Positions 39,309 through 62,257 of a stretch of DNA of 64,000 nucleotides are shown piece by piece. Both the position numbers and the translations under genes were made by a program. The notes under the pieces were generated by a model, which saw only the letters and a program-made list of their open reading frames with translations, did no database searches and was not told the origin of the DNA. Source of the DNA: Pseudooceanicola nanhaiensis DSM 18065 (GTDB lineage Bacteria; Pseudomonadota; Alphaproteobacteria; Rhodobacterales; Rhodobacteraceae); the NCBI RefSeq assembly GCF_000688295.1, contig NZ_JHZF01000013.1:1-64000 (forward strand), written 5' to 3'. How positions within the stretch are numbered: the first letter of the stretch is position 1; the number at the start of each line of letters is the position of its first letter.

Positions 39309-39486
39309 GTCCTGCCCCTTTGGCCAACCCGCCCGGACCGTGGCCGCCGCGCGGCGGAACCGCAACCGGATTGTGGCGGATGTTTCGCGCTCGTGAACAG
39401 AGAACTGCCGCACCCCGGTGCCGTTGCGCCGCAGGTGACGATAACCGGCTCGCCTGCGCGCGGCGCACTTGACGAGCGGGCCCGGA

Positions 39487-44510: not shown

Positions 44511-46281
44511 AGAGCTCGACCCGCGAGGGCGTGTCGCCGCCGGTGTGGATGGTGATCTGCGCCGCCTGGGCTTCGGTCTCGGCGTAGGGGTCGCCACCGC
44601 CGTTCAGGTTCCGCGCGAGCCGCGGGAAGCTGCTGCCCGCCACATGCAGGCGGAGGCGGTGGCCGGCCGGCACGGTGTAGGCGATGTCGCGCAGGTCGAC
44701 GGTGGCCTCGTAGACCGTTCCCGGCTCCATCAGCTCCGGCGTGGCGTAGCCGTCCCGATAGCGCAGGCGCAGGGCGCCTTCCTGGATCATCAGCGAGGTC
44801 CCGTCGGGGGCGACGTCGGTCAGCCGGGCAACGAGGTCGGTATCGGGCACATCCGTCGAGACGTGGAGACGCGCCCGCATGGGGCCGACGATGCGGAGCG
44901 GCTCGGTGAGCTCGGACCCGGTGAGGACGAGGAGGTCCTCCCGCCCCTCGATCGGGCGCTGGTCAAGCGGCCCGGCCCGCTGGTCCGGATCCCCGGTGCA
45001 GCAGATCGTCCCGCCGATGGTGGGCACGGGGTCCATGGGATCGGAGGTGAAGCTCTCCCTGCCCTGCGCAGGCGGCTCGCGGTTGAGGCTCTCGCCGTCG
45101 AGATAGAAGGTCTCGGTGACGGCGGCGGCGGGGGGCCAGCTTTCGGCGTCCATCCAGCGGTCCTCGCCCATCAGGTAGTAGCGGACGGGGGGCAGCTCCG
45201 GCGCGGGCGCGCCTTTCAGGTGGTGATCCATGAACCCGACGAAGAGCGCGTCGAAATCCTGCCCCTGCGCGGGATCGACCGGCATGTCCCCGACCGCGCC
45301 GTCCACGAAGGCCCCGCCGATGTCGCAATGCAGGCCCGGCAGGATCAGCGCCGTCCCCTCCGCCCCGGTCTCGCGCATCCGGGCGGCAAGCCGGAGGCTT
45401 TCCCGCGCGCCGTCGTACCAGTTGTCGACGATCAGGAATGGCGTGCCGAAACGGTCGTCTGCGTCGATGAAGCCCGAGGCCGCCCAGTAGGCGGGGTCGT
45501 CGAAATGGTCGAGGAAGGCGGTGTAATCGGTCGGATCCTCGCGGAACGTCGCCACCGCATCCTGCACCGGAAGGGTGTTCAGCCCCCGCGGATAATCCAC
45601 CGGCGGCTTGCCCATCCGGTCGGGCGTCTTGCCCCCGGCGGCGACGAACCAGCCGAAGCCCGAGGCGAGGTTGAGGATGCCGCCCTCGAAGAAGCCGAAG
45701 AACCCGTAGGCCCCGTCCAGCGTCCCGATGGCGCCGCCCGCCCCCATCGGGATCATCGCGCCATGCGCCGGGTGGCGCTCGCTGCCGAGCATCAGCTGCG
45801 TCTCGCCGAGGGCCGAGCAGCCGATGGTGCCGACCTTGCCGTCCGACCAGCCCTGCGCCGCGATCCAGTCGAGCGTCGCCGCCCCGTCCGCCGCCTCGTC
45901 CGGATAGGGCGCCCAGACCCCTTCGCTGGCGTATCGTCCGCGCATGTCCTGCACGACGACGGCATAGCCCTCGGGCAGGAAGGTGCGCATCCACTTGCGG
46001 ACCTCGCCGAACCGCGTCTTGCCATAGGGCAGCCGCATGAGGATCGCGGGAAGCGGTCCCTCCGCCCCCTCCGGCAGGTAGACATCCGTCGCCAGCCGCA
46101 CGCCGTCCGGCATCGGCACCATCGCCTCGTCCAGCCGCTCGGCCCCCATGGCCGAGACGGCGCGACCGTGTTCCCACTCGGCCTTCTGCGCACGCAGCAG
46201 CGTCTCGATCCGGTCCCTCTGCCAGAATGCGACGGCGGCCAGGGCCGCGATGACCAGAACCACCAGCAATAGAACTCTCAT
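44491..46281 (-). CDS. CocE/NonD (S15) family hydrolase, membrane-anchored
   Basis: A 596-residue serine hydrolase of the X-Pro dipeptidyl-peptidase/cocaine-esterase family. An N-terminal hydrophobic segment (about residues 2-20) should anchor it with the catalytic part in the periplasm. The catalytic Ser156 is in 'IGCSALGE', the Asp in 'IVDNWYDGA' and the His in 'LPGLHCDIGG'. The C-terminal part (about 390-590) is the galactose-binding-like jelly roll typical for the family. It sits between the polysaccharide genes and the NRPS cofactor gene. It may tailor the NRPS-PKS product after export or may be unrelated; its cleaved bond is unknown. Confidence 0.85.
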   Translation of the reverse strand: MRVLLLVVLVIAALAAVAFWQRDRIETLLRAQKAEWEHGRAVSAMGAERLDEAMVPMPDGVRLATDVYLPEGAEGPLPAILMRLPYGKTRFGEVRKWMRTFLPEGYAVVVQDMRGRYASEGVWAPYPDEAADGAATLDWIAAQGWSDGKVGTIGCSALGETQLMLGSERHPAHGAMIPMGAGGAIGTLDGAYGFFGFFEGGILNLASGFGWFVAAGGKTPDRMGKPPVDYPRGLNTLPVQDAVATFREDPTDYTAFLDHFDDPAYWAASGFIDADDRFGTPFLIVDNWYDGARESLRLAARMRETGAEGTALILPGLHCDIGGAFVDGAVGDMPVDPAQGQDFDALFVGFMDHHLKGAPAPELPPVRYYLMGEDRWMDAESWPPAAAVTETFYLDGESLNREPPAQGRESFTSDPMDPVPTIGGTICCTGDPDQRAGPLDQRPIEGREDLLVLTGSELTEPLRIVGPMRARLHVSTDVPDTDLVARLTDVAPDGTSLMIQEGALRLRYRDGYATPELMEPGTVYEATVDLRDIAYTVPAGHRLRLHVAGSSFPRLARNLNGGGDPYAETEAQAAQITIHTGGDTPSRVELSILPDG

Positions 46282-46349: not shown

Positions 46350-47051
46350 ATGCCCGTCACCATAGCCCTGCATTTCTGGCGCCTGACCGACGCCGAGACC
46401 GCGGACACCCTCGCACGCCACCTCTCCGAGGACGAGGCCGCCCGTGCCGCGCGCTTCGTGTTCGAGAAGGACCGGATCGCCTATCGCATCGGCCGGGGCC
46501 GCCTGCGCGAGATCCTCGGCGCGGCGACCGGGCAGGCGCCGGGTGCGCTCAGGTTCTCCTACGGCTCGCATGGCAAGCCCTTCCTGCCCGGCGGGCCGGC
46601 GTTCAACCTCAGCCATTCGGGCGGCCTCGCCTGTCTCGCGATCGCCGACCGGGTGCTGGGCGCCGACATCGAGGCGCACCGGGAGATCGAGGAGGGTGTC
46701 GCCGAACGTTTCTTCTCGCCGCAGGAATTTGCCACGCTCTCCGCCCTGCCGCCCGAGGAATGGAACCCCGGTTTCTTCCGCTGCTGGACGCGCAAGGAGG
46801 CGGTGGTGAAGGCCATGGGCGACGGGCTGTCGATCCCGCTCGATCGCTTCGACGTGACGCTCCGCCCCGGCGAGCCCGCGCGGATGACCCGCCTCGACCC
46901 GGCGCACGGAGCGCTCGCGGGCTGGCGGCTCGCGCATCTCGACCTCGGGCCGGGGATGGCGGGGGCGCTGGCGATGGAAACCGGGGGCGACACGCTCGCC
47001 CCCGAGATCCGCGAGGTGCCGGAGGGGCTGGTGGCTCACGCCTCCGCCTGA
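46350..47051 (+). CDS. Sfp-type 4'-phosphopantetheinyl transferase
   Basis: A 233-residue enzyme that attaches the phosphopantetheine arm of CoA to carrier-protein serines. The two family signatures are present: 'VLGADIEAHREI' (Mg-binding GxDIE) near residue 108 and 'CWTRKEAVVKAMGDGLSIPL' (WxxKEAxxK) near 150. 'FNLSHSGGLACLAI' supplies the conserved SHS. A GGAGGG site precedes the ATG. It is convergent with, and overlaps by 16 bases, the second synthetase gene; its role is most likely to activate the four carrier domains of the two adjacent synthetases. Confidence 0.93.
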   Translation: MPVTIALHFWRLTDAETADTLARHLSEDEAARAARFVFEKDRIAYRIGRGRLREILGAATGQAPGALRFSYGSHGKPFLPGGPAFNLSHSGGLACLAIADRVLGADIEAHREIEEGVAERFFSPQEFATLSALPPEEWNPGFFRCWTRKEAVVKAMGDGLSIPLDRFDVTLRPGEPARMTRLDPAHGALAGWRLAHLDLGPGMAGALAMETGGDTLAPEIREVPEGLVAHASA

Positions 47052-49798
47052 GCGCCGGTCTCGCCGAGGAAGCGCTCCATCTCGCGGGCCATGTCCTCGA
47101 CGCCGACACGCTTGTCGCGCAGGACGAGGACCTTGGGCAGGCGGACGGTCTTCAGCTTCTCCGGCGCGACGATCTTCTCCCAGCCGATCGACGGGCTGAA
47201 GCCGCCGCCCGATGGGGTGATCCCGGTCACGACATGCAGCACGGGGAAGTCCACCGGCGCGGGACGATAGGCATCGCGCTTGCGGGACACGTGGGAGATG
47301 AAGCGCTCCTGGTCCTCCTCCAGATCGCTCCGCTTGACCCGTTCGATCAGGCCGAGCCTGGTGCCGAGCTGGAGGATGCCGAGCTTCCGGGTGATCGAAT
47401 ACATGCCCAGAAGCGCCGGGAACGACATTTCGCCCGCCCGCACCGCGCGCAGGCGCGAGCGGAGCCCGTGCCATTTCTCCTGCCGGTTCAGCTTGGGGTT
47501 CTTCGGCAGGTCGCCGGTGTAGGAGGGCTCCCACACGTCCTTCATCACCACGCCCGCGATCTCGGCGCCCTCGCGTTTCAGCACGCGCGCGGCCTCGAGC
47601 GCGAGGTTGCCGTGCACGCAATTGCCGTAGAGCAGGTAGGGCCCCTCGGGCTGCGCCTTGCGGATGACCTCGGCGTAGTCCGCGGCGATCTCCTGGAACG
47701 GGCGGTCGTCGAGCGCGATGCCGCGGCCCGCGTCGAAGATGCGCACGCAGGCGGTCTGGCGCGGGACGCTTCCGGCGGTGCCGAGGGCCAGCGCGGTCGC
47801 GGCGTTGTTCACGGCGATGAGCGGCAGGCCCTCTCCCTCCTTCCGCAGGCGCATGATCCGCCAGTCCTCGGCCGGGGTCTCTGCATGGGACCGGCGGGCC
47901 GAGACGAGGCGGGCAAGGTCGGCGGGCGTCGAATGCTCGTAGACCTGCGTCACGTCGAGCTGCACGCCCCAGCGGTCGCGGATCTTCGTCAGCAGCCGGA
48001 GGACGAGGACGGAATGGCCGCCCATGTCGAAGAAATGCGAGGCGGGGGTGACGGTCCCGACCCCCAGCACCTCGGCGAAGTCCTCTTGCAGCGCCTCGAG
48101 CACGGCCGGGTCCATCGCCTCGGACCGCACCTGTTTCGCGTTGCGCTTCGGCGCGGCCAGCACGGCACGGTTGACCGCCCCGGTCGAGCTCCGCGGGAAA
48201 TCGGCGACGATGCTGATGCCGGTCAGGTCGGCGAGGGCCGCGTCGGGGCTCTCGTCCATGATCTTCTGCGGCAGCTCGTCCAGCGGCAGCGCGCCGGTCG
48301 CCTGCGGGACGACGAAGGCGTGCAGCGCCTCCTCGGTCCGGATCACCGCCGCCTCGCGCACCATCGGGTGCCGCATCAGGGCGTGTTCGGCGGCCGAGAT
48401 GCGGCGCCTGTCGTCCTGTCCCCGCTCGGCGAGCAGCGCCGGCAGGGGGATGGCGGAGAGCGGCGCCTCGGCGTCCGCGAAGGCCGTCTCGAAGGCGCCG
48501 CGCACCAGCTCGGCCAGCGCCTGCGCCGTTTCGCGGTCGAAGAGCGAGGTCGAATATTCGAGGTTCATCTGCCAGCCCGAGGGCCGGCCCATCACCGCGA
48601 GGTCAAGGTCGTAGATCGCCCCCGGCGCGTGGCTGGGCGAGGACCGCAGCGAGAAGGTGCCGTAGGTCTTCGTCTCCATGAAGACCTGCTGGAGGTTGAA
48701 ATTGACCGAGATCAGCGGGGTCCGCGACGGGTCGCGGCGCGGGTTCAGCCGTTCGACGATCCGGTTGAAGGGCATCGACTGGTGGGTGAGTGCGCCCTCG
48801 ACCACCTGCTTGGCCTCGGCGACCTGCGCCGAGAGCGGCCGGTCGGCGGGGGCCGAGAAGCGCAGCACGAGATTGTTGATGAAGACGCCGATCATCGGGT
48901 CGAGGTCGCTGTCGAGCCGCCCGGCGATCTGGGTCCCGAAGAGCACGTCGTCCCGCCCGCTCGCCCGCGCCAAAGCCGCGGAGAAGAGCGCGCAGCCATA
49001 GGTGAAGGGCGAGACGCCCGCTGCCTGCGCGGCTACGGCGAGGCGCGGACCGAAATCCTCGGGCAGGTCGAGGTTCACCTGCTCGACGCTCGTCGTCTTG
49101 ACGGGCGGGCGCGGCTTGTCGGGCTCGAGCTCGAAATAGGGGGCGTCCTTCAGGCGGGCTTCCCAGTAGGCGCCCTCCTCCTCCAGCACACCCGAGGCGA
49201 AGTAATCCTGCTGCCAGAGGGCGAAGTCGCCATATTGCAGCGGCAGGTCCGGCAGGTCGGGCGTGCGCCCCTCCTCGAAGGCCTGGGCGGCGGTGCCGAT
49301 CTCGTGGCCAAGCACGCGGATCGAGGCGCCGTCGAAGCAGGACTGGTGCACCACGAAGGTCAGGATCGCCCGGTCGGCGGCAAGGCGGATCAGCGTCGCG
49401 CGGATCAGCCCGGGCTGGCCGAGGTCGAAGGGCCGCTCCGCCACCTCGTGCGCGATGTCCGAGACGCGGGCCATCTGCTGCGCCTCGGGCACGGTGCGGA
49501 TGTCCACGGTGTCGAGCTTGAAGGGCACGTCGGCGACCACCTGCTGCACCGGCGCCCCGTCCTTTTCGACGAAGCGGGTGCGCAGGATCTCGTGGCGCTC
49601 GATGACGTGCTGGAAGGCGCGCTCGATATTGGCGGTCTGGACCTGCCCGCGCAGCTCCCAGCGGACGGCGACGTTCAGCGAGGGATTGCCGGGCTGCATC
49701 CGGTCGAGGAACCAGCAGCGGGTCTGCGTGGCGCTGAGCGGGAACTCGGCGACGAGCTCCGTGGCCTCGGCGGGCTGGCTGTGACGGTCTTCGCTCAT
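47036..49798 (-). CDS. NRPS terminal module: C, A-domain remnant, PCP, TE-like
   Basis: A 920-residue synthetase continuing the assembly line of the preceding gene (4-bp ATGA overlap). Domains: condensation (about 15-450), a stub resembling the C-terminal subdomain of an adenylation domain (about 470-555), carrier protein with the pantetheine Ser596 in 'DMGGHSVLVL', and an alpha/beta-hydrolase thioesterase-like domain (about 655-910). Oddities: the HHxxxDG motif reads HQSCFDG (His151, Gln152), so the catalytic second His is missing; the adenylation core is absent and the stub has 'PRSSTGAVNR', lacking the A10 Lys; the thioesterase nucleophile motif is 'YGNCVHGN' (Cys727) and no clear catalytic His follows. 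The reading frame is intact. The module is either specialised or decaying. Confidence 0.87.
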   Translation of the reverse strand: MSEDRHSQPAEATELVAEFPLSATQTRCWFLDRMQPGNPSLNVAVRWELRGQVQTANIERAFQHVIERHEILRTRFVEKDGAPVQQVVADVPFKLDTVDIRTVPEAQQMARVSDIAHEVAERPFDLGQPGLIRATLIRLAADRAILTFVVHQSCFDGASIRVLGHEIGTAAQAFEEGRTPDLPDLPLQYGDFALWQQDYFASGVLEEEGAYWEARLKDAPYFELEPDKPRPPVKTTSVEQVNLDLPEDFGPRLAVAAQAAGVSPFTYGCALFSAALARASGRDDVLFGTQIAGRLDSDLDPMIGVFINNLVLRFSAPADRPLSAQVAEAKQVVEGALTHQSMPFNRIVERLNPRRDPSRTPLISVNFNLQQVFMETKTYGTFSLRSSPSHAPGAIYDLDLAVMGRPSGWQMNLEYSTSLFDRETAQALAELVRGAFETAFADAEAPLSAIPLPALLAERGQDDRRRISAAEHALMRHPMVREAAVIRTEEALHAFVVPQATGALPLDELPQKIMDESPDAALADLTGISIVADFPRSSTGAVNRAVLAAPKRNAKQVRSEAMDPAVLEALQEDFAEVLGVGTVTPASHFFDMGGHSVLVLRLLTKIRDRWGVQLDVTQVYEHSTPADLARLVSARRSHAETPAEDWRIMRLRKEGEGLPLIAVNNAATALALGTAGSVPRQTACVRIFDAGRGIALDDRPFQEIAADYAEVIRKAQPEGPYLLYGNCVHGNLALEAARVLKREGAEIAGVVMKDVWEPSYTGDLPKNPKLNRQEKWHGLRSRLRAVRAGEMSFPALLGMYSITRKLGILQLGTRLGLIERVKRSDLEEDQERFISHVSRKRDAYRPAPVDFPVLHVVTGITPSGGGFSPSIGWEKIVAPEKLKTVRLPKVLVLRDKRVGVEDMAREMERFLGETGAQAEA

Positions 49799-52700
49799 TC
49801 CGCGGGCCTCCGCTCATTCCGGCGGGCACCGTTGCGGAAGTCCTTCAGCGAGGGCCGCGCCGGGCGGGCGGGTTCGCCGCCGCGGCTGTCGTGGAAGGCG
49901 GCGAGCTGGCGGATCGAGGGATGGGCGAACATGTCCCGCGCCTCGAGGTCGAGCCCGGCGTCGAGCATCTGCGCGGCGATCCGGAAGACGGCGAGGCTGT
50001 CGACGCCCAGGGTGAAGAGCGTGTCGGTGACGCCGATCTGCTCATGCCCCAGCACCTTGGCCCAGATCCCGGCGATCCGCTTCTCCGTCTCGGTCTCGGG
50101 GGCCACCTGGCTGTGCAGGGGCGTGACGCTGGCGCTCTCCGCCGGGTCGGGCAGCGCCTTGCGGTCGAGCTTGCCGTTGCCGGTCTGCGGCAGGGACGAG
50201 AGCGTCACCCAGGCGCGCGGGATCATGTAATCCGGCAGGTCCCTCGCCAGTGCCTCGGTCAGCGCCTCGGGGGCCGGGTCCTGTCCCGCGACCGGCACGA
50301 CGTAGCCGACAAGCTGGCGGTCCCCGGTGCCCCGGGCGCGGAGGTCCACGGCGGCCTTGTCGACGCCCGGGAGGGCGCGGAGGCGGGTCTCGATCTCGCC
50401 CAGCTCGATCCGGAAGCCGCGCAGCTTCACCTGCGTGTCGATCCGGCCCAGCACCTCGATCTCGCCATCCGCGCGGCGGCGGGCGAGGTCTCCGGTCGCG
50501 TAGAGCTTGCGGGGGGTGCCGCCGAGGCTGACGGACCGGAAGGCGGTCGCGGTCAGGTCGTCGCGGTTGAAGTAGCCGAGCGCGAGGCCGTCACCGCCGA
50601 TGTTCAGCTCCCCCGTGGCGCCGACGGGCGCGATCTGGCCCGCGTCGTCGAGGATGTGCAGCTCGGTATTGGCGATCGGGTGGCCGATGGTGATCGGCTG
50701 GCCAGGCTCGACGCGCTTGACGGCGGACCAGATGGTGGTCTCGGTGGGCCCGTACATGTTCCAGAGCTCGGCGCCCTGCGCGGTCAGGCGCTGCGCGAGG
50801 TCGGCCGGCAGGGGTTCGCCGCCGCAGAGCATCCGGAAGCCCTTCGCGGGGGTGAAACCGGCGGTCAGGACCATGTCCCAGAGGGTCGGCGTGGCCTGCA
50901 TGACGGTGACGTCGCCCCGGTTCAGGCGCTCCACCAGCTTGAAGCCGTCGATCACGTCCTCGGTCTTCGCGATGACCAGCTTCGCGCCCTTCGTCAGCGG
51001 CAGGAGAAGCTCAAGCACCGCGATGTCGAACATCACCGTCGTCACGGCGAGGAGGGTGTCGGAGGCGGAAAGTCCCGGCTCCTCCGCCATCGAGGCGAGG
51101 AAGTTCACCACCGCGCGGTGCGGGACGGCGACGCCCTTGGGGGTGCCGGTCGAACCGGAGGTGAAGATCACGTAGGCCGCCTGTTCGGGCGGGACCTGCA
51201 CGGGTTCGGGCGTTGCGCCCTCTTCCGCATCGCCCGTCAGGATCAGCGGCAGCGCGTCTCCCTCGGCGAAACCGGCGGTCTCGGCGCTGTCGGTGAGGAT
51301 CGCGGCGACCTCGGCCGTCTCGCAGATCGCGGCGAGGCGCGCGGCGGGCTGGCGCGGGTCGAGGGGCACGTAGGTGTGGCCCGCCTTCAGGACCGCGAGC
51401 AGCCCCGCGAGCATCCCCGCGCCACGCGGCAGGCAGAGCGCCACGCGCTGGCCCCTGCCCGGCACGCGGGACTGGATCAGCGCGGCGAGCGCATCGCTCC
51501 GGGCGGCAAGCGCCGCGTAGGTCAGCGTTCCCTCCGCATCCTCGACCGCCGGGTCCCCGGCATGGGCCGCGACGCTGCGGTCGATCAGGTCGGTGAGCGT
51601 CGCCTGCCGGTCGTAGGCCCGGGCGGTCGCGTTCATCTCGGCGCCGATCGCAAGACGGTCGGCCTCGGCCAGGGTCGAGACGGCGGCGACCGGCTGCTCG
51701 GGGTCGGCGACCATCGCGGCGAGCACCGTCTCGTAGGCGCGGGTCCAGCCGCGCACCGTCTCTTCGTCGTAGAGATCGGCGTTGTAATGGGCGTCGATCC
51801 GGAGGCCCTCGGAGGTTTCGGCGAGGTTGAAGAACAGGTCGAAGTTCACCGCCCGCTTGGCGTTCGGGCGGAAGCCGACTTTCAGCCCCGGCATCTCGGC
51901 CATGGCGCTGTCCTTCTCGAGGTTGAACTCGATCTCGGTCAGCGGCAGGCGGTCGAGCTTGCGCGGGATCTCGAGCGCCTGGACGATCGCCCCGAAGGTC
52001 GTGTCCTGGTGGTCGAAGGCGGCCATCATCCGGTCACGCACGGCCTGCATGTGGGCCGCGACCGAGGCGCCCTTCGCCATCGGCGCGCGGACCGGCAGGA
52101 AGTTCACGCAATGGCCGACGAGGTTCGGGTTCGGCAGGGTCTGCTGCTCTGCCGTCGGCACGCCGAGGACCACGTCGCGCGCACCCGAGAGGCGCGAGAC
52201 GAGGACCTGCATCGCGGTGAAGGTCGTGGCGAACAGGGTGCAGCCGCGCTTGCCGCCCATCTTCCGCGCGGCCTTCACCGCCTCGGGCGCGATGGTGTGG
52301 AAGACGGTGCCGCCGGAATAGCTCTTGCGCTCGGGGCGCGGGCGGTCGACGGGCATGTCGGGCAGCGCCGGGATGGTCTCGTATTGAGCCTTCCAGAACG
52401 CCATGGTCGCGCCGTTCGCCAGCTTCGCGGCGGCGGCGCGGGCATGGGCGGCGAAGGAGGGCGCGGGCGGAAGGTCGGCGGAGCGGCCCTCGACCCGGGC
52501 GGCGTAGAGGGCCGCGAGATCGTCGAGCATGACGCCGAAGGACCAGCCGTCCGCGACGATGTGGTGCATCGTCATGACGAGGACGTGGGAGGCCTCGGAG
52601 AGCGTCACCAGCGTCCCGCGCAGGGGCGGTTCGGCGGTGATGTCGAAGGGGGTCTCGCCCTCCTCGGCGATGAGCGCGTCGAGGGCCTGCTGCGGGTCGG

Positions 52701-55700
52701 CCGCGCCGGTCAGGTCGAGACGGGCGAGCGGGAGGGGCGCCGGGTCGGTCACGTCGAAGGTCGACCCGTCACGGGCGAAGCGCAGGCGGAGCGCGTCGTG
52801 CCGGGCGATCATGGCGTCCCAGGCGGATTGCAGGGCGCCGGCGTCGAGCGTGCCGTCGAGCGTGAGCGAGCCGCATTCGTTGAACGCCGCGGCGGCGGCA
52901 CCGCCCATCTGGTGCGACATCCAGATCTCGCGCTGGCTTTCGGTCAGCGGGACCTGCGTCGCGGGGGCCAGCGTCGCGGCTGCCGGGAGCGCGGGCGCAT
53001 CGGCCGCGCGCAGATCGGCGAGGATGCCGACCGACAGCAGCGTGTCGAGCGCCTTCTCGAAGGCCGAAAGCACGCGGGCACATTCGGCCTCGCCATGTTC
53101 GGTGGTCAGGAAGCCGCAGAAACCGTCCATGACATGCACGCCCTCCATCCGCATCAGCGGGTAGAGCAGGGTCGCGCGGGGGTCGGCCTCGGTCGTGTTG
53201 ATGACGAACCAGCTCGAGTAATGCTCGATCAGGTCCGGCAGCCCGCGCGAGGTCATCGCATGCTTGAGCTGATCGGCGAGCGTCCTGCAGCGCTCCGCCG
53301 CCTCGACCCAGAGCCTGTCGCCCTCGCGCTCCATGAAATCGAGCGAGGCATCGACGGCGGCCAGCACCAGCGGGTGGCGCACGAAGGTGCCCGCGAAGAA
53401 GGTCGGGACCTTCTCGGGACGCGAGTCGTCGCCGTATTGCCACGGGCCGCCGTCCAGCGCGTCCATGAACCGGGCGTCACCGGCGAGCACCCCGATGGGC
53501 ATGCCGCCGCCCACGACCTTGCCGTAGGTCGCCATGTCGCCCTGTATGCCCCAGACGCCCTGCATGCCGCGGCGCGAGGTGCGGAAGCCGGTGACCACCT
53601 CGTCGATGACGAGCGCGGTGCCGCCCTCCCTTGTGACATCGCGGAGGGTACGCACGAAGCTCTCGGGGCGGTGCTCGGGGTGGCGGCTCTGCACCGGCTC
53701 GACGATGACCGCGGCGACGTCGTTTATGTTGTCGCGGATCCAGTCGAGCGCGCTGTCCGCGCCGTAGGGCAGCACGATCATGTTGGCGATGCCCGAGCGC
53801 GGGATCCCCGGCGCGATCGGCAGGGGACGCGGATCGCCCGGCTTGGTGCGGCCCTTCACGAGGACCTCGTCGAACTGGCCGTGGTAATCGCGGTCGAAGA
53901 CCACGACGAGGTCGCGGCCCGTCACCGTCCGGGCGACGCGCATCGCGGCCATGACGGCCTCGGAGCCGGTGTTGCAGAAGGTGACCCGCTCGTGGCCCAC
54001 CCAACGGGCGAACTTCTCGGCCACCGGGCCCGCGAGGTCGGCCTGCGGTCCGATGGGGAAGCCCTTCTCCATCTGTTTCGTCACCGCCTCGACCACGAAA
54101 TCGGGCGAATGGCCGAAGGCGGTCTGGCCGAACCCGTTCACGAGGTCGACGAAATCGTTGCCGTCGAGGTCGTGGATATAGGCGCCCTTGGAGCGGTCGG
54201 CGACGATCGGGAAGACGAGCTCCTTCCACTCGGCCCGGAACCCGGCGGCGGTGCGGGGGTCGGCGTGGACGTCGCGGTATTTCGCCGTGTAGGCCTTGGA
54301 TTTCGCGTGTTTCGCGGCGTAGCGGTCGGCGAGGTCGCGGGCAAAGGCGGTCTGGGCCGCGTCCATCGTGCCGCCGGTGACGCTCGGGCCGCGGCCAAGC
54401 TTGAAGCCGCCCTTGGGCTGGGCCTCCTCGTCGTCCGTCGCGACCGCTTTCGGGGCGGGCGCCGCGGCGACGGCGGCCGGAGCGGGGGCCGCTGCGGGCG
54501 CAGGCTGGACCGGCGCGGGCTGCGCCGGGGCCGTGCCGCCGAGGGACTGGAGCTGCTGCGCGAAGATCGCCTGCATGGTCTGGAGCTGGGCCTGGAGCAC
54601 GCCCTCGACGCCCGAGCCGAGCGCGACGGGCTGCGCTGCGGGCATCGCGGGCGCGGCGGCAACGGCGGCGACCGGGGCGGCCGCGGGGGCCGCGGCGACC
54701 GGCGCGGGGGCGGTTTCGGCCGGCATCTCGCTATCGAGATGGGCGGCGAGGTCGCTGAGCGTCGAGAGGTCCGACAGCAGCCGGCGGAAGCCGATGTCCA
54801 CGCCGTATTGCCGCGAGAGCGCCTGGCTCACCTGCCCCATGAAGAGCGAATCGAAGCCGAATTCGAGGAACGAGGTTCCGGCCTCCGCCGCGGTGATCTC
54901 CTCGCCGGACATGTCGGCGAGCAGGTCCGCCAGTTCGGCGATCAGGCGGGGAAGACGGTCCACGGCGACGGGAGCGGTGGTCATGGCGGGCACCTCTTGG
55001 GCGATAGGGGCTTGAGACGGCGGGGCGGGCGGCACGGCGGGCATCGCCGCGCCCCGGGCCTCTGGCGGATCGATCCAGTAGCGCTGGCGCTGGAACGGAT
55101 AGGCGGGGAGCGGCACCTTGCGGTGCCCGCGCGGCCCCTGGCGGGACCAGTCGACGGCAACGCCGCTGGCCCAGAGAGAAGATGCCGCGGCAGCCATCGC
55201 ATTCATATCGGGAACCGATCTGGCATGATCCGGCAGCGATTGAATTGTACCTTGATGACTGCCGCGACCCAAGGTCTGGCCGGCAAACGCCGAGAGGGTT
55301 CGGCCGGGGCCGACCTCGACGAAGACCGGGGACCTTGTCCCGGCGACCGCCTCGAGGGCGGCCTGGAAATCGACGCAGGCCCGGGCCTGAGCCGCCCAGA
55401 AGGCGGGGTCCGTGGCCTCTGCGTCCGTCAGTTCGCGGCCGGTGACGGCCGAGACGATGGGGGTGTGAGGGGCGTTCAGGGTGACGCCCCCGGCGGCGGC
55501 ATGCAGCGCCTCCGTCACCGGGTCCATCATGCGGGAATGGAAGGCGTGCGAGGTGTGGAGCCGCTGGTTCGCGATCCCCGCGGCCTCGAGCCGCGCGGCG
55601 AGCGCGTCGATCGCCTCGAAGGGACCGGCCACGACCTGGAGCTTCGGCGCATTCCTGGCGGCGAGGTCGGTGGTGTCGTCGAGATGGGGTTCGAGTTCGG

Positions 55701-58700
55701 CGAGCGGCGCCCGGACCGAAAGCATCGCGCCCCCGGGCTGGTCCATCATCAGGCGGCCGCGTTTGGCGATGAGCGTGAGGGCGTCCTCGAAGGACATCAC
55801 GCCCGCCAGCGCGGCGGCGGCGAATTCGCCGACCGAATGGCCGATCATGGCGGCGGGGGCGATCCCCCGCGCCTGCCAGAGCTTCGCGGTCGCGTATTCG
55901 GTCAGGAACAGCGCGGGCTGGGTGATCCATGTCTCGCGGAGGGCCCGGGCGGCCTCTTCGGACGTGAGGTCCTGCCCGAGGATCAGGCGCCGGATGTCCT
56001 GCCCGAGGATCGGGGCGAGGATCTCGGTGCCCTGATCGATCCAGCGGGCGTAACCGGGTTCGGCCGCGTAGAGCCCGGCGCCCATGCCGGGATACTGGGA
56101 GCCCTGTCCGGGGAAGAGGAAGACCACGTCGGGAGCCGCCCCTGTGGCCTTCGGCGCCTTGGCGGCGCGAAGCTGGGCGATGGCGTCGGCCCTGTCCGCG
56201 GCGGCGAGGCCGAGGCGGAACTCGTGGGTCCGGCGGCCCTCCTGCAGGGTGAAGGCGACGTCCGGAAGCGGGGTGTCGGTGGTCTCGAGGTGAGAGGCCA
56301 GTTCGCCCGCCATCTGCATGAGCGCCTCGGGGGTCCGGGCGGAGAGCGGCAGGAGGGAAATGGCCTCAGTGGCCGGGGTGGCCTCCGCCGAGGGGGCCCC
56401 GACCGTCGGAGCCTCGCCGATCACCACATGCGCATTGGTCCCGCCGACGCCGAAGGAGGAGATGCCGGCGAGGCGCGGGCTGTCGCCCTCCCACGGGCCG
56501 GCGCCCTCGGGAACGTGGAAGCCCGAGCCCGCGAGGTCGATCCGCGGGTTCAGCGTGCGGAAATGGGCCACGGGAGGGATCTCGCGGCGCTCCAGCATGA
56601 GGACGGTCTTGATGACCGAGGTCACGCCCGCCGCGGCGTCGAGGTGGCCGATGTTGCCCTTGACCGAGCCGAGGGCGCAGCGCCCCGCGCCGGTGCCGAA
56701 GGCGGACTTCAGGCCCGCGATCTCGATCGGATCGCCCAAGGGCGTGGCGGTGCCGTGGCACTCCATGTAGCCGATCTGCGCGGGCGCCACGTGCGCGTCG
56801 CGGTGCGCCATGCGGATCGCATCCGCCTGACCTGCGACCGAAGGCGCGGTGTAGGACATCTTCGCCGCGCCGTCGTTGTTCAGCCCCACGCCCCGGATGA
56901 CGGCGCGGATGTGGTCTCCGTCGGCCAGCGCATCGCTCAGGCGCTTCAGCACCACGACACCCGCGCCGTGGCCGAAGACGGTGCCGCCCGCCTCCGCGTC
57001 GAACGGACGGCAGAGGCCGTCGGGCGAGGCCATGCCGCCCTCCTGGTAGAGGTAGCCGCGCTTCTGCGGGAAGGTGACCGAGACGCCGCCCGCCATCGCG
57101 ACCCGCGCCATCCCGGCGCGCAGGGCCTGAACGGCCTGCGTGACGGCGACGAGCGAGGTCGAACAGGCGGTGTTGACCGAGATCGCGGGACCGGTGAGGC
57201 CCAGCTTGTAGGCGACGCGGGTGGCGATGCCGTCGGAATCGTTGCCGCTCAGCAGCGTGTAGTCGAGCTGGAAGCCGGTGGTGAAGTCGCGCTGCGCGGC
57301 GCGGTCGGGGATCAGGTTCTCGAGCAGGTAGGTCGACATGGACGCGCCTGCGTAGAGGCCCACGGGGCCCGCGCGCGTCGGGTCCACGCCGGCGTCATCC
57401 AGCGCCTGCTGGCAGAGCTCGAGGAAGATGCGGCCCTGCGGGTCGGTCTCGGCGGCCTCGCGGGGGCGCATGTCGAAGAACTTCGCGTCGAACATCTCGG
57501 GGGACGAGAGGATCGAGCGGGCGGGGACGTAATTCGGCAACGCGCGGGTGGCGGGGTCGAAGGCGTCCTCGGCCTGCGCGGGATCGAAGCGTTCGATCAC
57601 GCTGCGGCCGTCGCGGAGCACATCCCAGAAGGCGTCGAGGCTGTCGATGCCGGGGAGCCGCGCGGCAAGGCCGATCACCGCGATGGCGCCGTCGTCCGCC
57701 TTCTGCGGGACGGTCTCGGGTGCAGGCGCCTCGGGGGAAAGCGTCGAGAGCCGGGTGGCGAGGTCGCCGAGGCGCGGCGTCTCGAACATCAGCGCGATGT
57801 CGAAGCGGGCGCCGAGGGCGGTCTCGATCCTGGCATGGGCCTCGATCAGTTGCAGCGAGGTGCCCCCGAGGTCGAAGAACGTGTCCGAGGGCCGCGGCGG
57901 AGGGCAGCCGAGGACGGATTGCCAGACCTCCGCGATGCCCCGCCGGGTGGCGTTGGTGTCGCGGCTCTGCTCGGGCGCGGGGGCGGCCTTCGCGGCGCGC
58001 AGGGCCTTGCGGTCGACCTTGCCCGCCTGCGTCAGCGGGAAGGCGTCGAGGAGGTCGATCTCGCGCGGGATGATCTCGCGCGAGAGGGCGCCGGCGGCGG
58101 CCTCCTTCAGCGCGGCGGTGAAGGCGGCAGGGTCGGCGACCGGCGCCTCGGGGATGACGAAGGCGACGAGGCGGGCGGCGGGGGTCTTCACCAGCTCGAC
58201 CACCGCGTCGGCCACGCCGGGGAGGTCGCGCAGGACGTGTTCCACGCCGTCGATCTCGACCCGGCGGCCGGCGAGCTTCACCTGCCGGTCGGCGCGGCCG
58301 GCGAAATCGTAGAGCCCGTCGGGACGGCGGCGGGCGAGGTCCCCGGTCAGGTAGACGAGGCCGGCGTGCCCGGGGCGCGGGTCGGGGATGAAGACCTCGG
58401 CCGTCTTCTCGGGGCGCTGGTGGTAGCCGAGCGCGACCTTGGCCCCGGCGATGGCAAGCTGCCCGGTCTCGCCCTCGGCGACCGGCTGCAGGTCGTCGCC
58501 GAGGAGCAGCGCCTCTTCCAGGGGGAGCGCGTGGCCGAGAGGAATGGCACCGGCACGGGCGTCCTCGGGCGTGACCTCGTGCACGAGGCTCTGCACGCAG
58601 GTCTCGGTGGGACCGTAGGCGTTCACCAGCCGGATCCCGGGCCAGCGCTCCAGCAGGCGCGCGGCGAGCGGGGCGGACATCACGTCCCCGCCCGCGACCG

Positions 58701-59517
58701 AGAGGCGGACGGTGGCGAAGGCCTCGATCCGGTGCTCGATCATCAGGTGGTGCAGCCCGGCGTACCAGGGCGTGACGGTGACGCCGTGGCGGGTGATCGC
58801 CTCGGCCACGATGTCGAGCGAGGCGGTCGCGGCCTCGACCACGGCCACCGCGGCGCCCGAGAGCAGCGGCACCATGATCTCGTGCAGCGCGCCGTCGCAG
58901 GCGATGGTGGCGGCATGCAGGCAGACGTCGCCCGGCCCCATGGCGATCGCGGGCTGGCAGAGCGCCATCGCGGTGATCGCCCGGTGCGGCAGGACCACGC
59001 CCTTCGGCGTGCCGGTGGTGCCCGAGGTGTAGAGCACGCAGGCCGGGGCCTCGGGGCCGGCAGAGAGCGGCGCGCCGGGTTCGGCCCCCTCGGACCCGGC
59101 CTCGCCGATCACGAGCAGGGGGAGCGCCGCGCCGAAGAGGGCCCGGCTGTCCTCCAGCCGCCCGGGGGGGCAGAGCGCGGCCCGCATCGGCAGGTCGCCC
59201 GCGATGAACGCCAGCTGTTCGGGCGCGAAATCCGGGTCCATCGGGACGTAGACCGCGCCAAGCCGAAGGCAGGCGAACATGCCGGTGATCGCCTCGAACC
59301 CGCGGCCCGCGCAGAGCGCGACATGATCGCCTTCCCCCACGCCCTCCGCCTCGAGCGCGGCGGCAAGGCGCAGGACCTCCGCCGCCAGCCCGGCATAGCT
59401 CAGGCGGCGGTCACGACCCAGCAGCGCCGGGGCGTCCGGCGCCGCCGAGACAGCCGCGGCAAACGCCTCGTACACCCCGGTATCGGGGAGGCGGGCGGTG
59501 TGGGTGTCCGTGCTCAC
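49795..59517 (-). CDS. Hybrid NRPS-PKS megasynthase with in-line aminotransferase
   Basis: A 3240-residue assembly-line enzyme. Domains: A1 (about 10-515; 'LYTSGTTGTPKG', 'NAYGPTETC', A10 'QAGKVDRKAL'), PCP1 (Ser554 in 'LGGTSLQL'), ketosynthase (about 610-1050; Cys785 in 'NTACSTSLVAV', 'ECHGTATPLGDP', 'KGNIGHLDAAAG'), acyltransferase (about 1130-1430; 'FPGQGSQYPGMG', Ser1228 in 'GHSVGEF', 'HAFHS' for malonyl-CoA), ACP (Ser1557 in 'GFDSLF'), Ala/Pro-rich linker (about 1598-1693), class III PLP aminotransferase (about 1715-2150; Lys2000), condensation (about 2170-2600; canonical 'HHIVADGWS', His2319), A2 (about 2640-3130; pocket residues D-I-L-Q-L-G-M-I-W-K, glycine-like) and PCP2 (Ser3174). 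No ketoreductase. It should extend an A1-loaded acid with malonate, aminate the beta-keto group and join glycine. Confidence 0.92.
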   Translation of the reverse strand: MSTDTHTARLPDTGVYEAFAAAVSAAPDAPALLGRDRRLSYAGLAAEVLRLAAALEAEGVGEGDHVALCAGRGFEAITGMFACLRLGAVYVPMDPDFAPEQLAFIAGDLPMRAALCPPGRLEDSRALFGAALPLLVIGEAGSEGAEPGAPLSAGPEAPACVLYTSGTTGTPKGVVLPHRAITAMALCQPAIAMGPGDVCLHAATIACDGALHEIMVPLLSGAAVAVVEAATASLDIVAEAITRHGVTVTPWYAGLHHLMIEHRIEAFATVRLSVAGGDVMSAPLAARLLERWPGIRLVNAYGPTETCVQSLVHEVTPEDARAGAIPLGHALPLEEALLLGDDLQPVAEGETGQLAIAGAKVALGYHQRPEKTAEVFIPDPRPGHAGLVYLTGDLARRRPDGLYDFAGRADRQVKLAGRRVEIDGVEHVLRDLPGVADAVVELVKTPAARLVAFVIPEAPVADPAAFTAALKEAAAGALSREIIPREIDLLDAFPLTQAGKVDRKALRAAKAAPAPEQSRDTNATRRGIAEVWQSVLGCPPPRPSDTFFDLGGTSLQLIEAHARIETALGARFDIALMFETPRLGDLATRLSTLSPEAPAPETVPQKADDGAIAVIGLAARLPGIDSLDAFWDVLRDGRSVIERFDPAQAEDAFDPATRALPNYVPARSILSSPEMFDAKFFDMRPREAAETDPQGRIFLELCQQALDDAGVDPTRAGPVGLYAGASMSTYLLENLIPDRAAQRDFTTGFQLDYTLLSGNDSDGIATRVAYKLGLTGPAISVNTACSTSLVAVTQAVQALRAGMARVAMAGGVSVTFPQKRGYLYQEGGMASPDGLCRPFDAEAGGTVFGHGAGVVVLKRLSDALADGDHIRAVIRGVGLNNDGAAKMSYTAPSVAGQADAIRMAHRDAHVAPAQIGYMECHGTATPLGDPIEIAGLKSAFGTGAGRCALGSVKGNIGHLDAAAGVTSVIKTVLMLERREIPPVAHFRTLNPRIDLAGSGFHVPEGAGPWEGDSPRLAGISSFGVGGTNAHVVIGEAPTVGAPSAEATPATEAISLLPLSARTPEALMQMAGELASHLETTDTPLPDVAFTLQEGRRTHEFRLGLAAADRADAIAQLRAAKAPKATGAAPDVVFLFPGQGSQYPGMGAGLYAAEPGYARWIDQGTEILAPILGQDIRRLILGQDLTSEEAARALRETWITQPALFLTEYATAKLWQARGIAPAAMIGHSVGEFAAAALAGVMSFEDALTLIAKRGRLMMDQPGGAMLSVRAPLAELEPHLDDTTDLAARNAPKLQVVAGPFEAIDALAARLEAAGIANQRLHTSHAFHSRMMDPVTEALHAAAGGVTLNAPHTPIVSAVTGRELTDAEATDPAFWAAQARACVDFQAALEAVAGTRSPVFVEVGPGRTLSAFAGQTLGRGSHQGTIQSLPDHARSVPDMNAMAAAASSLWASGVAVDWSRQGPRGHRKVPLPAYPFQRQRYWIDPPEARGAAMPAVPPAPPSQAPIAQEVPAMTTAPVAVDRLPRLIAELADLLADMSGEEITAAEAGTSFLEFGFDSLFMGQVSQALSRQYGVDIGFRRLLSDLSTLSDLAAHLDSEMPAETAPAPVAAAPAAAPVAAVAAAPAMPAAQPVALGSGVEGVLQAQLQTMQAIFAQQLQSLGGTAPAQPAPVQPAPAAAPAPAAVAAAPAPKAVATDDEEAQPKGGFKLGRGPSVTGGTMDAAQTAFARDLADRYAAKHAKSKAYTAKYRDVHADPRTAAGFRAEWKELVFPIVADRSKGAYIHDLDGNDFVDLVNGFGQTAFGHSPDFVVEAVTKQMEKGFPIGPQADLAGPVAEKFARWVGHERVTFCNTGSEAVMAAMRVARTVTGRDLVVVFDRDYHGQFDEVLVKGRTKPGDPRPLPIAPGIPRSGIANMIVLPYGADSALDWIRDNINDVAAVIVEPVQSRHPEHRPESFVRTLRDVTREGGTALVIDEVVTGFRTSRRGMQGVWGIQGDMATYGKVVGGGMPIGVLAGDARFMDALDGGPWQYGDDSRPEKVPTFFAGTFVRHPLVLAAVDASLDFMEREGDRLWVEAAERCRTLADQLKHAMTSRGLPDLIEHYSSWFVINTTEADPRATLLYPLMRMEGVHVMDGFCGFLTTEHGEAECARVLSAFEKALDTLLSVGILADLRAADAPALPAAATLAPATQVPLTESQREIWMSHQMGGAAAAAFNECGSLTLDGTLDAGALQSAWDAMIARHDALRLRFARDGSTFDVTDPAPLPLARLDLTGAADPQQALDALIAEEGETPFDITAEPPLRGTLVTLSEASHVLVMTMHHIVADGWSFGVMLDDLAALYAARVEGRSADLPPAPSFAAHARAAAAKLANGATMAFWKAQYETIPALPDMPVDRPRPERKSYSGGTVFHTIAPEAVKAARKMGGKRGCTLFATTFTAMQVLVSRLSGARDVVLGVPTAEQQTLPNPNLVGHCVNFLPVRAPMAKGASVAAHMQAVRDRMMAAFDHQDTTFGAIVQALEIPRKLDRLPLTEIEFNLEKDSAMAEMPGLKVGFRPNAKRAVNFDLFFNLAETSEGLRIDAHYNADLYDEETVRGWTRAYETVLAAMVADPEQPVAAVSTLAEADRLAIGAEMNATARAYDRQATLTDLIDRSVAAHAGDPAVEDAEGTLTYAALAARSDALAALIQSRVPGRGQRVALCLPRGAGMLAGLLAVLKAGHTYVPLDPRQPAARLAAICETAEVAAILTDSAETAGFAEGDALPLILTGDAEEGATPEPVQVPPEQAAYVIFTSGSTGTPKGVAVPHRAVVNFLASMAEEPGLSASDTLLAVTTVMFDIAVLELLLPLTKGAKLVIAKTEDVIDGFKLVERLNRGDVTVMQATPTLWDMVLTAGFTPAKGFRMLCGGEPLPADLAQRLTAQGAELWNMYGPTETTIWSAVKRVEPGQPITIGHPIANTELHILDDAGQIAPVGATGELNIGGDGLALGYFNRDDLTATAFRSVSLGGTPRKLYATGDLARRRADGEIEVLGRIDTQVKLRGFRIELGEIETRLRALPGVDKAAVDLRARGTGDRQLVGYVVPVAGQDPAPEALTEALARDLPDYMIPRAWVTLSSLPQTGNGKLDRKALPDPAESASVTPLHSQVAPETETEKRIAGIWAKVLGHEQIGVTDTLFTLGVDSLAVFRIAAQMLDAGLDLEARDMFAHPSIRQLAAFHDSRGGEPARPARPSLKDFRNGARRNERRPAE

Positions 59518-59972: not shown

Positions 59973-60770
59973 TCAGTCACGCCGCTCCAGCAGGTAGCCG
60001 CGGCTTGCGCTGCGGCCGAGCCAGGGGTGGGTGGGGATCGCATGGGAGAGCTCACCGATCTCCCAGCTGTCGCGCAGATCGTAGCCGAGGGCGTCCAGCT
60101 CGGCCTGCCAGGCGGCGCGGGACCGGATCTGGTAGGGCACGCGGCCGTGGCCGATACGCTCGATGGTGAAGACCGCGGGACCGTCGCGCAGCGCGACCTT
60201 GTTCAGCAGGATGTGCCGCGGCCGGCCGCCCAGATCCTCCAGCAGGGCGGCGAGCGGGCGGTCGAGGTATTGCATCAGACCGGAGGCGAGCAGCAGGTCG
60301 GGACATTCCAGCCCCTTCAGCGTCTCCGCGAACCGCAGATCCGCCGGCAGACCGCCCGCCGCCTGACGCTTCCGCGCGGCGGCGACGATGCCGGGCAGGT
60401 CCTGCACGGTCCATTGCAGGCCGGACAGGTCCAGCACGCCCGAGAAGGCGATGTATTTCGTGCCGAGGTGCCCGCCCGCGTCCACCACATGGCGCAGGTC
60501 GGGCAGAAGCCGGCTCAGCCAGAAGATCAGCGGGTAGTCGAAGGCCGCACGTTCACACATCTGCGGGAAGGAGACATCGGCGATGCTCTCGTCGTCATAG
60601 CCGCCCCGCAGGCTGGCGGGGATGGCCGCAAGCGCGGCGTCCCGGCTGTCGTAGGCGCCGGCGAAACGCGGCGGCCGGGGTGTCATTGCCCGGGCGCGCG
60701 CGCCCGCGGCGCCGACCCCCTGGGCAAGGGATTTCGCCGCCCGACCGGTGGCGCGCAGGACGTCGTTCAT
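59973..60770 (-). CDS. LIC12133-type putative methyltransferase
   Basis: A 265-residue protein resembling the LIC12133 (TIGR04325) putative methyltransferases that occur in surface polysaccharide clusters. 'HVVDAGGHLGTKYIAF' (about 100-115) is a Gly-rich SAM-binding-like loop, and 'VQDLPGIVAAARKRQAA' follows as in that family. N-terminal about 35 residues are basic and Ala-rich. Its ATG overlaps the stop of the flippase gene (ATGA), so it belongs to the polysaccharide operon and not to the NRPS transcript, which has its own promoter downstream. Confidence 0.75.
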   Translation of the reverse strand: MNDVLRATGRAAKSLAQGVGAAGARARAMTPRPPRFAGAYDSRDAALAAIPASLRGGYDDESIADVSFPQMCERAAFDYPLIFWLSRLLPDLRHVVDAGGHLGTKYIAFSGVLDLSGLQWTVQDLPGIVAAARKRQAAGGLPADLRFAETLKGLECPDLLLASGLMQYLDRPLAALLEDLGGRPRHILLNKVALRDGPAVFTIERIGHGRVPYQIRSRAAWQAELDALGYDLRDSWEIGELSHAIPTHPWLGRSASRGYLLERRD

Positions 60771-62257
60771 GAAAGGACCCTTTTGCGGAAACCCGAGGAA
60801 AGCTGCGCCCAGAGCCGGGGCGCGAGGCGCCAGAGCGCCAGGATGTAGACGGCCAGCGCCGCGAGCCCGTAGAGCACCGCCTCGACCAGCGGCGGAAGGC
60901 CCATGCCGTCGGTGCCGAGGTTCAGCGCCAGCAGCACCCCGGTCCCGAGCGCCAGCGGCACCAGCGCGCCGGTGATGTCCGACAGGATCTCGGCCGGGGT
61001 GACGCCGGCGTAGCGCCGGAACAGCCAGAAGGTCGCGACCAGCACAAGCACCGCGATCGCCACCTGCGACCACGCGAGCGCTTGGAGCCCGAGGTGCACC
61101 GCCCCGAAGGTCAGCGCGGTCGAGATGGCAAAGACCACCCCCGCGAAGACCGGCAGCACCCGGGCATGGCCCGAGACGGACATGGTCGGTTCGGTCAGCA
61201 GGCCGAACATGAAGACCAGACGGCTGAGCGCGAGGATGGCCACCAGCGGCCCGGCGGGCTCCCACTCGGCGCTGAGCAGGCCGCGGATCAGCTCGTCGCT
61301 CATGCAGATGAGCCAGAGGAAGACCGGCGCGCTGAGCGCGAAGAGACCGCTGAGAAACCCCCGCAGCGCCACGCGCAGCCGGGCCTGCTGCGCGTCGGCA
61401 GGCCCTTCGTCGCGGGCCAGCCGCAGCCGCGTCCAGGCCAGGAGCTGGCCGGGCACGGCGATCACCTCGGCCACGGCGCTGACCAGACGGTCGGCGGCGC
61501 GGAAATAGCCGACCGCCGCCGCGCCGAGGAAGCCGCCCACGATGAATGTGGCAAGGTAAAGGCGGACGTAGGTGAACATGCGGCTTGCGAAGATCTGCGC
61601 CGAGAACGTCCAGAGATCGCGCAGCACCGGCCCCCGCAGCCCCGCCCGCGGCGGCATCCGCGTGACGAGGAAACTGAGCGCGAGATGCGTCGACTGGTAG
61701 GCGATCCGCCCGTAGGCGAGCGAATAGACACCATGCCCGCGCAACAGCCCCGCGACGGCGACGATGAGGCCCACGACCTCTCCGACGATCTCGCAGAGCG
61801 CCGAGGCCTTCATCTTCCGCTGCCAGATCATGACCCCCTTCTGCGCCGAGGAGGCGGTGGCGAGAACCACCCAGGCCGCGAAAAGCTCCATCAGGACAAC
61901 GGTATCCGCGGCGACGCCGAAACGCCCCGAGAGCTGCGCGGCAAGGATGCCCAGGAGCGAGACCGCCGCGCCGCTGGTGATGGCGATGAAGAGCACCTGC
62001 TGCGGCACGCGGCTGTCGCCCGACCAGGCCATGATGAAGGGCGCCCAGCCGAATTCGGAAAACCGGAAGAGCAGGATGGCGCAGGCAGAGACGAGGGCGA
62101 AGACCCCGAACTCGGCCGGCCCGAGAACGCGGGCAGCGACGATGAAGATCGCGAACTGGGCCGCCTGGGAGACGATCCTCTCGGCAACGGTGATCGCACC
62201 GTCGCCCAGCATGGAGCTTCCGCCCCTGCGCGTCTCTGCGGAGGTGTCTGTACTCAT
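60767..62257 (-). CDS. Wzx-like oligosaccharide flippase (polysaccharide transporter)
   Basis: A 496-residue membrane protein with 12-14 hydrophobic segments of the MOP/Wzx type (MVF and polysaccharide transporter branch), which flips undecaprenyl-linked repeat units across the inner membrane. 'AAQFAIFIVAARVLGPAEFGVFAL' at the N-terminus is a typical opening. The start at 62257 is chosen because the longer frame to 62308 adds an unusual His-rich peptide. A role in exporting the NRPS-PKS product instead cannot be excluded, but the neighbouring glycosyltransferases favour polysaccharide. Confidence 0.87.
   Translation of the reverse strand: MSTDTSAETRRGGSSMLGDGAITVAERIVSQAAQFAIFIVAARVLGPAEFGVFALVSACAILLFRFSEFGWAPFIMAWSGDSRVPQQVLFIAITSGAAVSLLGILAAQLSGRFGVAADTVVLMELFAAWVVLATASSAQKGVMIWQRKMKASALCEIVGEVVGLIVAVAGLLRGHGVYSLAYGRIAYQSTHLALSFLVTRMPPRAGLRGPVLRDLWTFSAQIFASRMFTYVRLYLATFIVGGFLGAAAVGYFRAADRLVSAVAEVIAVPGQLLAWTRLRLARDEGPADAQQARLRVALRGFLSGLFALSAPVFLWLICMSDELIRGLLSAEWEPAGPLVAILALSRLVFMFGLLTEPTMSVSGHARVLPVFAGVVFAISTALTFGAVHLGLQALAWSQVAIAVLVLVATFWLFRRYAGVTPAEILSDITGALVPLALGTGVLLALNLGTDGMGLPPLVEAVLYGLAALAVYILALWRLAPRLWAQLSSGFRKRVLS

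Follow-up and report, generated by a model that had tools for sequence, protein, structure and literature searches.

A hybrid nonribosomal peptide synthetase-polyketide synthase in an exopolysaccharide locus of Pseudooceanicola nanhaiensis: a candidate source of a diaminoacyl-glycine substituent

What might an assembly line of the class that makes antibiotics and siderophores be doing among exopolysaccharide genes? The question is raised by a stretch of 64,000 nucleotides from Pseudooceanicola nanhaiensis DSM 18065 (contig NZ_JHZF01000013.1, positions 1 to 64,000; hereafter the window), in which 49795..59517 (minus strand, start codon GTG) encodes a genuine hybrid nonribosomal peptide synthetase (NRPS)-polyketide synthase (PKS) of 3240 residues. 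With slightly better than even confidence, we favour the explanation that this NRPS-PKS stands at the centre of a cassette accessory to an exopolysaccharide pathway of the Wzx/Wzy type, in which it would make a beta,gamma-diaminoacyl-glycine unit with a variable starter. This unit is probably a substituent of the exopolysaccharide repeat unit.

The best Pfam stretches and the motif positions give the order adenylation (A1), peptidyl carrier protein (PCP1), ketosynthase (KS), acyltransferase (AT), acyl carrier protein (ACP), aminotransferase (AMT), condensation (C), A2 and PCP2, all on the minus strand. Pfam matched two AMP-binding and three PP-binding stretches and one stretch each of ketoacyl synthase, acyltransferase, class III aminotransferase and condensation, and all of the catalytic motifs searched for are intact. 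A1 lies at approximately 57988..59475, PCP1 at approximately 57742..57948 and PCP2 at approximately 49894..50106, while the ACP surrounds FGFDSLF (54841-54861; estimated bounds 54712..54936); a serine is present in each of the three carrier motifs. The KS (56560..57696) carries the cysteine motif TACST and two histidine motifs, and the AT (55159..56124) carries GHSVG and HAFHS, the latter a malonyl-type motif. The in-line class III AMT (53023..54285) has its PLP lysine in the motif YGKVVGGG, and residues 1722-2164 match in sequence the solved aminotransferase of mycosubtilin MycA. The C domain (51643..52965) has an intact HHIVADG, and A2 occupies 50158..51600. No ketoreductase family, fatty-acyl loading domain or other ligase domain was matched by Pfam in this protein. 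Its frame passes a third-position GC filter and its core domain order was found again in other genomes, so the frame is not a product of chance. Condensation-domain matches in the whole genome number two, one in this protein and one in the next gene, 47036..49798. An antisense open reading frame of 3227 residues runs across the whole gene (49891-59574, plus strand) and was set aside as probably a high-GC artefact; automatic annotation might call it. The frame 59514-59972 was likewise rejected as a gene: it has no Pfam match and does not appear among the frames that pass the coding filter.

Relatives of the line were collected as the best 80 of 210 stretches encoding relatives of its AMT-C piece. 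They come from Rhodobacterales, Hyphomicrobiales (Ensifer, Rhizobium, Chelativorans, Nitratireductor and Stappia), Paraburkholderia and one Nevskia, and the nearest ones with a name belong to Pseudooceanicola and Oceanicola. A1 was present in 68 of the 74 loci that are not cut on the A1 side (in L062 by DNA search only), and A1-PCP is a separate gene in most Hyphomicrobiales-type loci, in Nevskia and in Loktanella. The A2 code of the window, DILQLGMIWK, follows the pattern DILQ[LM]G[MLV][IV]WK, a glycine code that is present in 79 of 79 A2 domains; HAFHS is kept in all 72 AT-containing proteins scored. The 67 A1 domains scored hold 35 different codes, many of them hydrophobic and one resembling a valine code, and the amino-binding Asp and Lys are kept in every one of them. 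The A1 code of the window, DGHPVGAVQK, is not known to match any described code, and its substrate is not predictable. For 27 of the 39 Rhodobacterales-type loci (our own grouping), namely those with both domains, A1 is in every case less like that of the window than A2 is, with median identities of 50 and 66%, respectively; the C domain, at 51%, is about as variable as A1. Exchange of A1 at a sharp breakpoint was considered and rejected: four pairs show no sharp dip.

The amino-binding Asp in A1 points to an alpha-amino acid starter and hence to a beta,gamma-diamino acid unit, and loading with a fatty-acyl or aryl acid does not appear to apply, given this Asp in 67 of 67 A1 domains and the lack of any other ligase domain. 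Because there is no ketoreductase and the AMT follows the ACP, the predicted chain would start with an alpha-amino acid, lengthened by two carbons and carrying an amino group at its beta carbon, followed by glycine, which is probably the last residue that the line adds. The original prediction had described A-PCP-KS-AT-ACP-AMT-C-A-PCP in one protein, with a regular A-PCP pair as loader, a malonyl-type PKS module without ketoreductase, an in-line class III aminotransferase for beta-amination and a glycine-like NRPS module, and the domain order, motifs and pockets agree with it throughout. Its product, a starter acid extended to a beta-amino acyl unit and joined to glycine, holds as to extension, amination and glycine, for which the motifs speak, and is to be amended as to the starter, which the Asp would make an alpha-amino acid. 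That account did not cover the degenerate terminal module and the Cys thioesterase in it, nor the location among exopolysaccharide genes, nor the wide distribution across Rhodobacterales, Hyphomicrobiales, Paraburkholderia and Nevskia.

The assembly line continues in 47036..49798 (minus strand), which overlaps the NRPS-PKS gene by 4 bp and encodes a terminal NRPS protein of 920 residues. Pfam and an alignment of relatives resolve it into a C domain whose second His is replaced (HQSCFDG), a remnant of the C-terminal subdomain of an A domain, a PCP and a thioesterase (TE) with a Cys in GNCVHG. The large A subdomain is absent, and the TE has its Cys and Asp and no His at the aligned position. The module thereby departs from the standard NRPS termination module, which has an HHxxxDG C domain, a working A domain, a PCP and a TE with nucleophile, Asp and His. 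Relatives of this protein are present in 74 of the 80 collected loci, besides the window. Counts were made on 73 of 86 rows, after 13 had been dropped as main protein or fragment (L004-L014, L026 and L074). The A core motif searched for occurs in none of the 73; the C motif begins with HQ in 43 of them (the window included), HH in 12, HN in nine, HS in seven and HY in two. All 72 scorable rows have Cys as the TE nucleophile (L043, being incomplete, was not scored), the Asp is kept in 71 of 71 scorable rows, and the His column reads His in 51 rows, another letter in 19 and a gap in three. Among rows with a PCP, the stretch from C to PCP measures approximately 140-180 residues where only the subdomain is left and 55-79 where nothing is left; it reaches 563 in Nevskia alone, whose full-length A domain has degenerate core motifs. 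The PCP is missing from the alignment in the seven Paraburkholderia rows, one of which was scanned and gave no PCP match. A quick tree of 72 rows, whose long branches make the counts rough, requires at least four changes of state between HH and other motifs and at least five for the A remnant. When 35 TE domains are aligned, eight columns are invariant, Cys88 and Asp115 being two of them. Our reading is that the last module ceased to add a residue and retained its Cys thioesterase. Precedents for Cys-type NRPS thioesterases are ObiF (PMC6668435) and AB3403 (4zxh), to which the TE profile gives its best match among solved structures. The likeness to ObiF and AB3403 lies in the GXCXG motif; here, however, no working A domain stands beside the TE, and the TE His is not conserved in the clade of the window.

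The surroundings of these genes are those of an exopolysaccharide locus. In the window, an initiating sugar transferase (62555..63262, plus strand; Pfam Bac_transf, the nearest NCBIfam model being WbaP, below its cut-off), a Wzx-type oligosaccharide flippase (60767..62308, minus strand) and a Wzz/Wzc-type chain-length protein with a tyrosine autokinase domain (41123..43354, plus strand) all exceed the Pfam cut-off. They are accompanied by a candidate Wzy polymerase with 11 hydrophobic spans in a simple scan and no Pfam or NCBIfam match (39469..40956, plus strand), and by three genes assigned through family matches: a GT4 glycosyltransferase (43359..44510, plus strand), a polysaccharide pyruvyl transferase (36473..37666, plus strand) and a methyltransferase of 265 residues of the TIGR04325 (LIC12133) family (59973..60770, minus strand). 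An outer-membrane polysaccharide export protein was not identified among the part of the window's open reading frames that was scanned, and was seen in several relatives.

Relatives of the NRPS-PKS share this setting. Polysaccharide genes are annotated around it in all five plasmid loci opened, out of 28 plasmid records that match it, some of them weakly or partly. At least two of ten exopolysaccharide marker types, which were drawn from L097 and from three further loci, namely that of the window and those of two plasmid relatives, occur in 62 of the 80 related loci, as against one of 34 control stretches; the controls were 20 kb each, at positions of our choosing in seven genomes, and the loci measured up to 22.8 kb. 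The sole positive control, L116 (G105:C1:1000001-1020000), contains the matching polysaccharide core of genome G105, whose NRPS lies approximately 600 kb away, so that the polysaccharide locus of G105 stands in trans. A PF13440 flippase lies within approximately 25 kb of the NRPS in five of nine genomes reached through the loci, Nevskia included, and was not found near it in the three Paraburkholderia genomes or G105 among these nine. In one Paraburkholderia genome, a downstream stretch contains glycosyltransferases and a PF01943 flippase along with weak matches to Wzy and the methyltransferase; the glycosyltransferases, the flippase and the Wzy match lie 12-20 kb into it.

Loci that have the polysaccharide genes and lack the NRPS show what is particular to the cassette. 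Five were opened (G322, G240, G298, G183 and G308), and they share the Wzy-like protein and core genes with the window: the Wzy-like protein in five of five (it was the selection criterion), pyruvyl transferase, Wzc and a conserved unnamed protein in four each, and the GT4 protein (at least 64% identity) and the sugar transferase in three each. Unlike the window, they have no NRPS-PKS, no terminal protein in the stretches read, and no TIGR04325 methyltransferase or strong match to the cognate flippase, the flippases of G183 and G298 matching at 26-30%. A polysaccharide core thus occurs independently of the NRPS, which comes in a cassette together with a flippase and a methyltransferase of its own. 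The conserved locus protein of the window (37644..39563, minus strand), which has no Pfam or NCBIfam match, has counterparts of 41-46% identity in four of the five.

Co-inheritance was followed in two sets of genomes. Among 100 relatives, counting the genome of the window, nine match the terminal protein strongly (E < 1e-230), and the strong matches to the Wzy-like protein and to Wzx lie in exactly these nine; the AMT-C piece matches 12, the other three being G038, G043 and G086 (47, 46 and 32% identity), none of which has the partners. A search for the domain order in other genomes, as suggested with the original prediction, finds the core order again. A family-wide sample of 295 genomes, with roughly one for each genus, gives matches to the AMT-C piece in 13, to Wzy in 21, to Wzx in eight (seven at E<=1e-60) and to the methyltransferase in eight (E<=1e-20). 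Matches to the methyltransferase and strong matches to Wzx occur only in NRPS-positive genomes. At these thresholds, the 21 Wzy-positive genomes divide cleanly: Wzx and methyltransferase are both present in seven of seven with the NRPS and both absent from 14 of 14 without it. The NRPS-negative genome G183 has a 26% flippase match, excluded at E<=1e-60; this cut, like the 46% identity cut that keeps 10 of the 13 NRPS matches, was set after the matches had been seen. Over all 13 NRPS genomes, Fisher tests give p = 1e-12 for the methyltransferase, 5e-11 for Wzx and 4e-6 for Wzy, values that count genomes as independent and are inflated by physical linkage. In G010 the NRPS-Wzx part lies approximately 300 kb from the Wzy-Wzc part. 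A second AMT-C group, 39% identical and from the same bacterial family, is found in G190, G214 and G265.

The sequences establish the gene content, motifs, conservation and co-inheritance described above; the mechanism that we propose for the cassette would run as follows. A1 would load an alpha-amino acid specific to the lineage, KS-AT-ACP would extend this starter with malonate, the AMT would aminate the beta-ketone to give a beta,gamma-diamino acyl unit, and C-A2-PCP2 would add glycine. The terminal protein, its A domain gone and its C domain mostly degenerate, would add no residue; its Cys thioesterase would take over the chain and transfer it, the likeliest acceptor being a hydroxyl or amino group on the repeat unit while this is linked to undecaprenyl, and the dedicated Wzx would then flip that unit. 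The TIGR04325 methyltransferase would act on the unit too. Wzx flippases are reported to favour their cognate unit (PMC6436433). Together with a flippase that travels with the NRPS, this preference suggests that the flipped unit is altered by the NRPS product, which leads us to favour attachment to the lipid-linked repeat, a transfer that the Cys thioesterase would carry out. Among the proposed substrates, product, terminal offloading, methyltransferase target and attachment to sugar, attachment is the least certain step.

Several observations weigh against this explanation. Fewer than two markers were found in 18 of the 80 loci, five with one and 13 with none, the latter being all seven Paraburkholderia loci, the short fragments L026, L074 and L085, and L028, L084 and L086. 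The terminal protein was not found in six of 80 loci (L029, L032, L039, L044, L046 and L048), and the window is among the 19 rows without His at the aligned TE position. A1 is missing from the available stretch in six of the 74 uncut loci (L038, L039, L044, L049, L051 and L086), in which the line may be loaded in trans or started otherwise. Partners are also missing from NRPS-positive genomes: all three from G038 and G043, Wzx and Wzy from G212, and all from G190, G214 and G265. Physical linkage inflates the co-occurrence, although the parts are separate in G010 and G105. Finally, co-inheritance would also fit a free molecule made alongside the polysaccharide, the sugar attachment being our own reading of the cassette.

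Such a free molecule is the principal rival, although we hold it to be the less likely of the two. The product would be a secreted signal, vicinal-diamine metallophore or matrix regulator, exported by the MOP-type flippase or another pump, and its tie to the exopolysaccharide would be one of shared regulation and inheritance only. In favour of this are the presence of a TE in the line itself and the ability of MOP proteins to export small molecules, and the variability of A1 would suit private signals too. However, no recurrent dedicated exporter emerged among the scanned cluster representatives (clusters c9, c12, c18, c21 and rarer ones lay outside the scan), and what travels with the NRPS is a flippase of polysaccharide type and a methyltransferase, both lacking, at the thresholds used, from the 14 NRPS-negative, Wzy-positive genomes. 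A considerably weaker case can be made for an ordinary beta-amino-acid product of the lipopeptide or microcystin kind with exopolysaccharide genes as chance neighbours. The AMT and module order do match lines of the mycosubtilin and McyE type, but no fatty-acyl loading domain was matched, and the marker counts in loci and controls, with co-occurrence across genomes sampled at roughly one for each genus, make chance neighbourhood improbable for most of the family. Least probable is a decaying copy that releases no product, to which the HQ motif of the terminal C domain and the missing TE His of the window would point; against it stand a long open frame that passes the coding filter and the intact motifs of the main protein, while HQ in 43 of 73 rows and the TE Cys in 72 of 72 argue for a changed function and not for recent decay.

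Compared with described systems, the module order is of a known kind: the 3240-residue protein shares KS-AT-ACP-AMT-C-A-PCP in one chain, with active motifs, with AMT-containing hybrid PKS-NRPS proteins. In the mycosubtilin/iturin lines (MycA, BamA; BamA matches at 31.5%), an in-line aminotransferase is followed by a C domain, as here. Those lines start with a fatty-acyl ligase, whereas here loading is by an amino-acid A-PCP and the surrounding genes are those for an exopolysaccharide. McyE of microcystin/nodularin synthesis has the order KS-AT-ACP-AMT-C-A-PCP, with a C-methyltransferase and a glutamate A domain; here no C-methyltransferase was matched, the A domain is of glycine type and a loading domain is fused in front. 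A Planktothrix plasmid NRPS-PKS, which was not checked for being McyE, matches at 35%. The accessible parts of the open-licence literature held neither a described product, in line with the original prediction, which recognised none, nor an NRPS-PKS in a polysaccharide pathway; nor did they describe a diamino version loaded with an amino acid, a terminal module that has been reduced repeatedly or the tie to an exopolysaccharide pathway. Papers on NRPS/PKS genes of roseobacters or rhizobia (PMC10221251, PMC4359443, PMC4062626, PMC8383342, PMC6256449) mention no polysaccharide link in their accessible text, and an NRPS/PKS system of Agrobacterium vitis was looked for and not found in the open-licence literature.

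More tentatively, and with somewhat less than even confidence, the assembly line may be dedicated to exopolysaccharide decoration as a whole, with a diaminoacyl-glycine whose first side chain is hypervariable, a degenerate C-PCP-Cys-TE protein as transferase onto the lipid-linked repeat, and a serotype-like, peptide-modified surface polysaccharide in Alpha-, Beta- and Gammaproteobacteria. If so, enzymes of a class familiar from antibiotic and siderophore synthesis would have been recruited to place a variable tag on surface polymers, both in marine roseobacters and in plant-associated rhizobia. This would account for the retention of the orphan NRPS-PKS in these genomes, make the recognition of polysaccharides by hosts and phages accessible to genetics, and provide a natural transferase for coupling peptides to glycans.

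Further genes lie beside the assembly line. A 4'-phosphopantetheinyl transferase, assigned by family match, is encoded at 46350..47051 (plus strand). A CocE/NonD (S15, PepX_C) hydrolase (44491..46281, minus strand) is a recurrent neighbour: 12 of 92 loci have a member of its cluster, the annotation of L098 and L099 includes it, and it could act on the amide unit. In some relatives, the terminal C-TE gene is adjoined by a GINT1_N-type protein (L061:17476-19059 by Pfam, L034:16233-17822 by membership of the same cluster), a candidate for the sugar acceptor step. In the Paraburkholderia locus L073 (L073:17016-20856), an unknown protein of 400 residues, a cupin_8 protein and a GT2 protein directly follow the C-TE gene, and the clusters of these genes have members in other Paraburkholderia loci.

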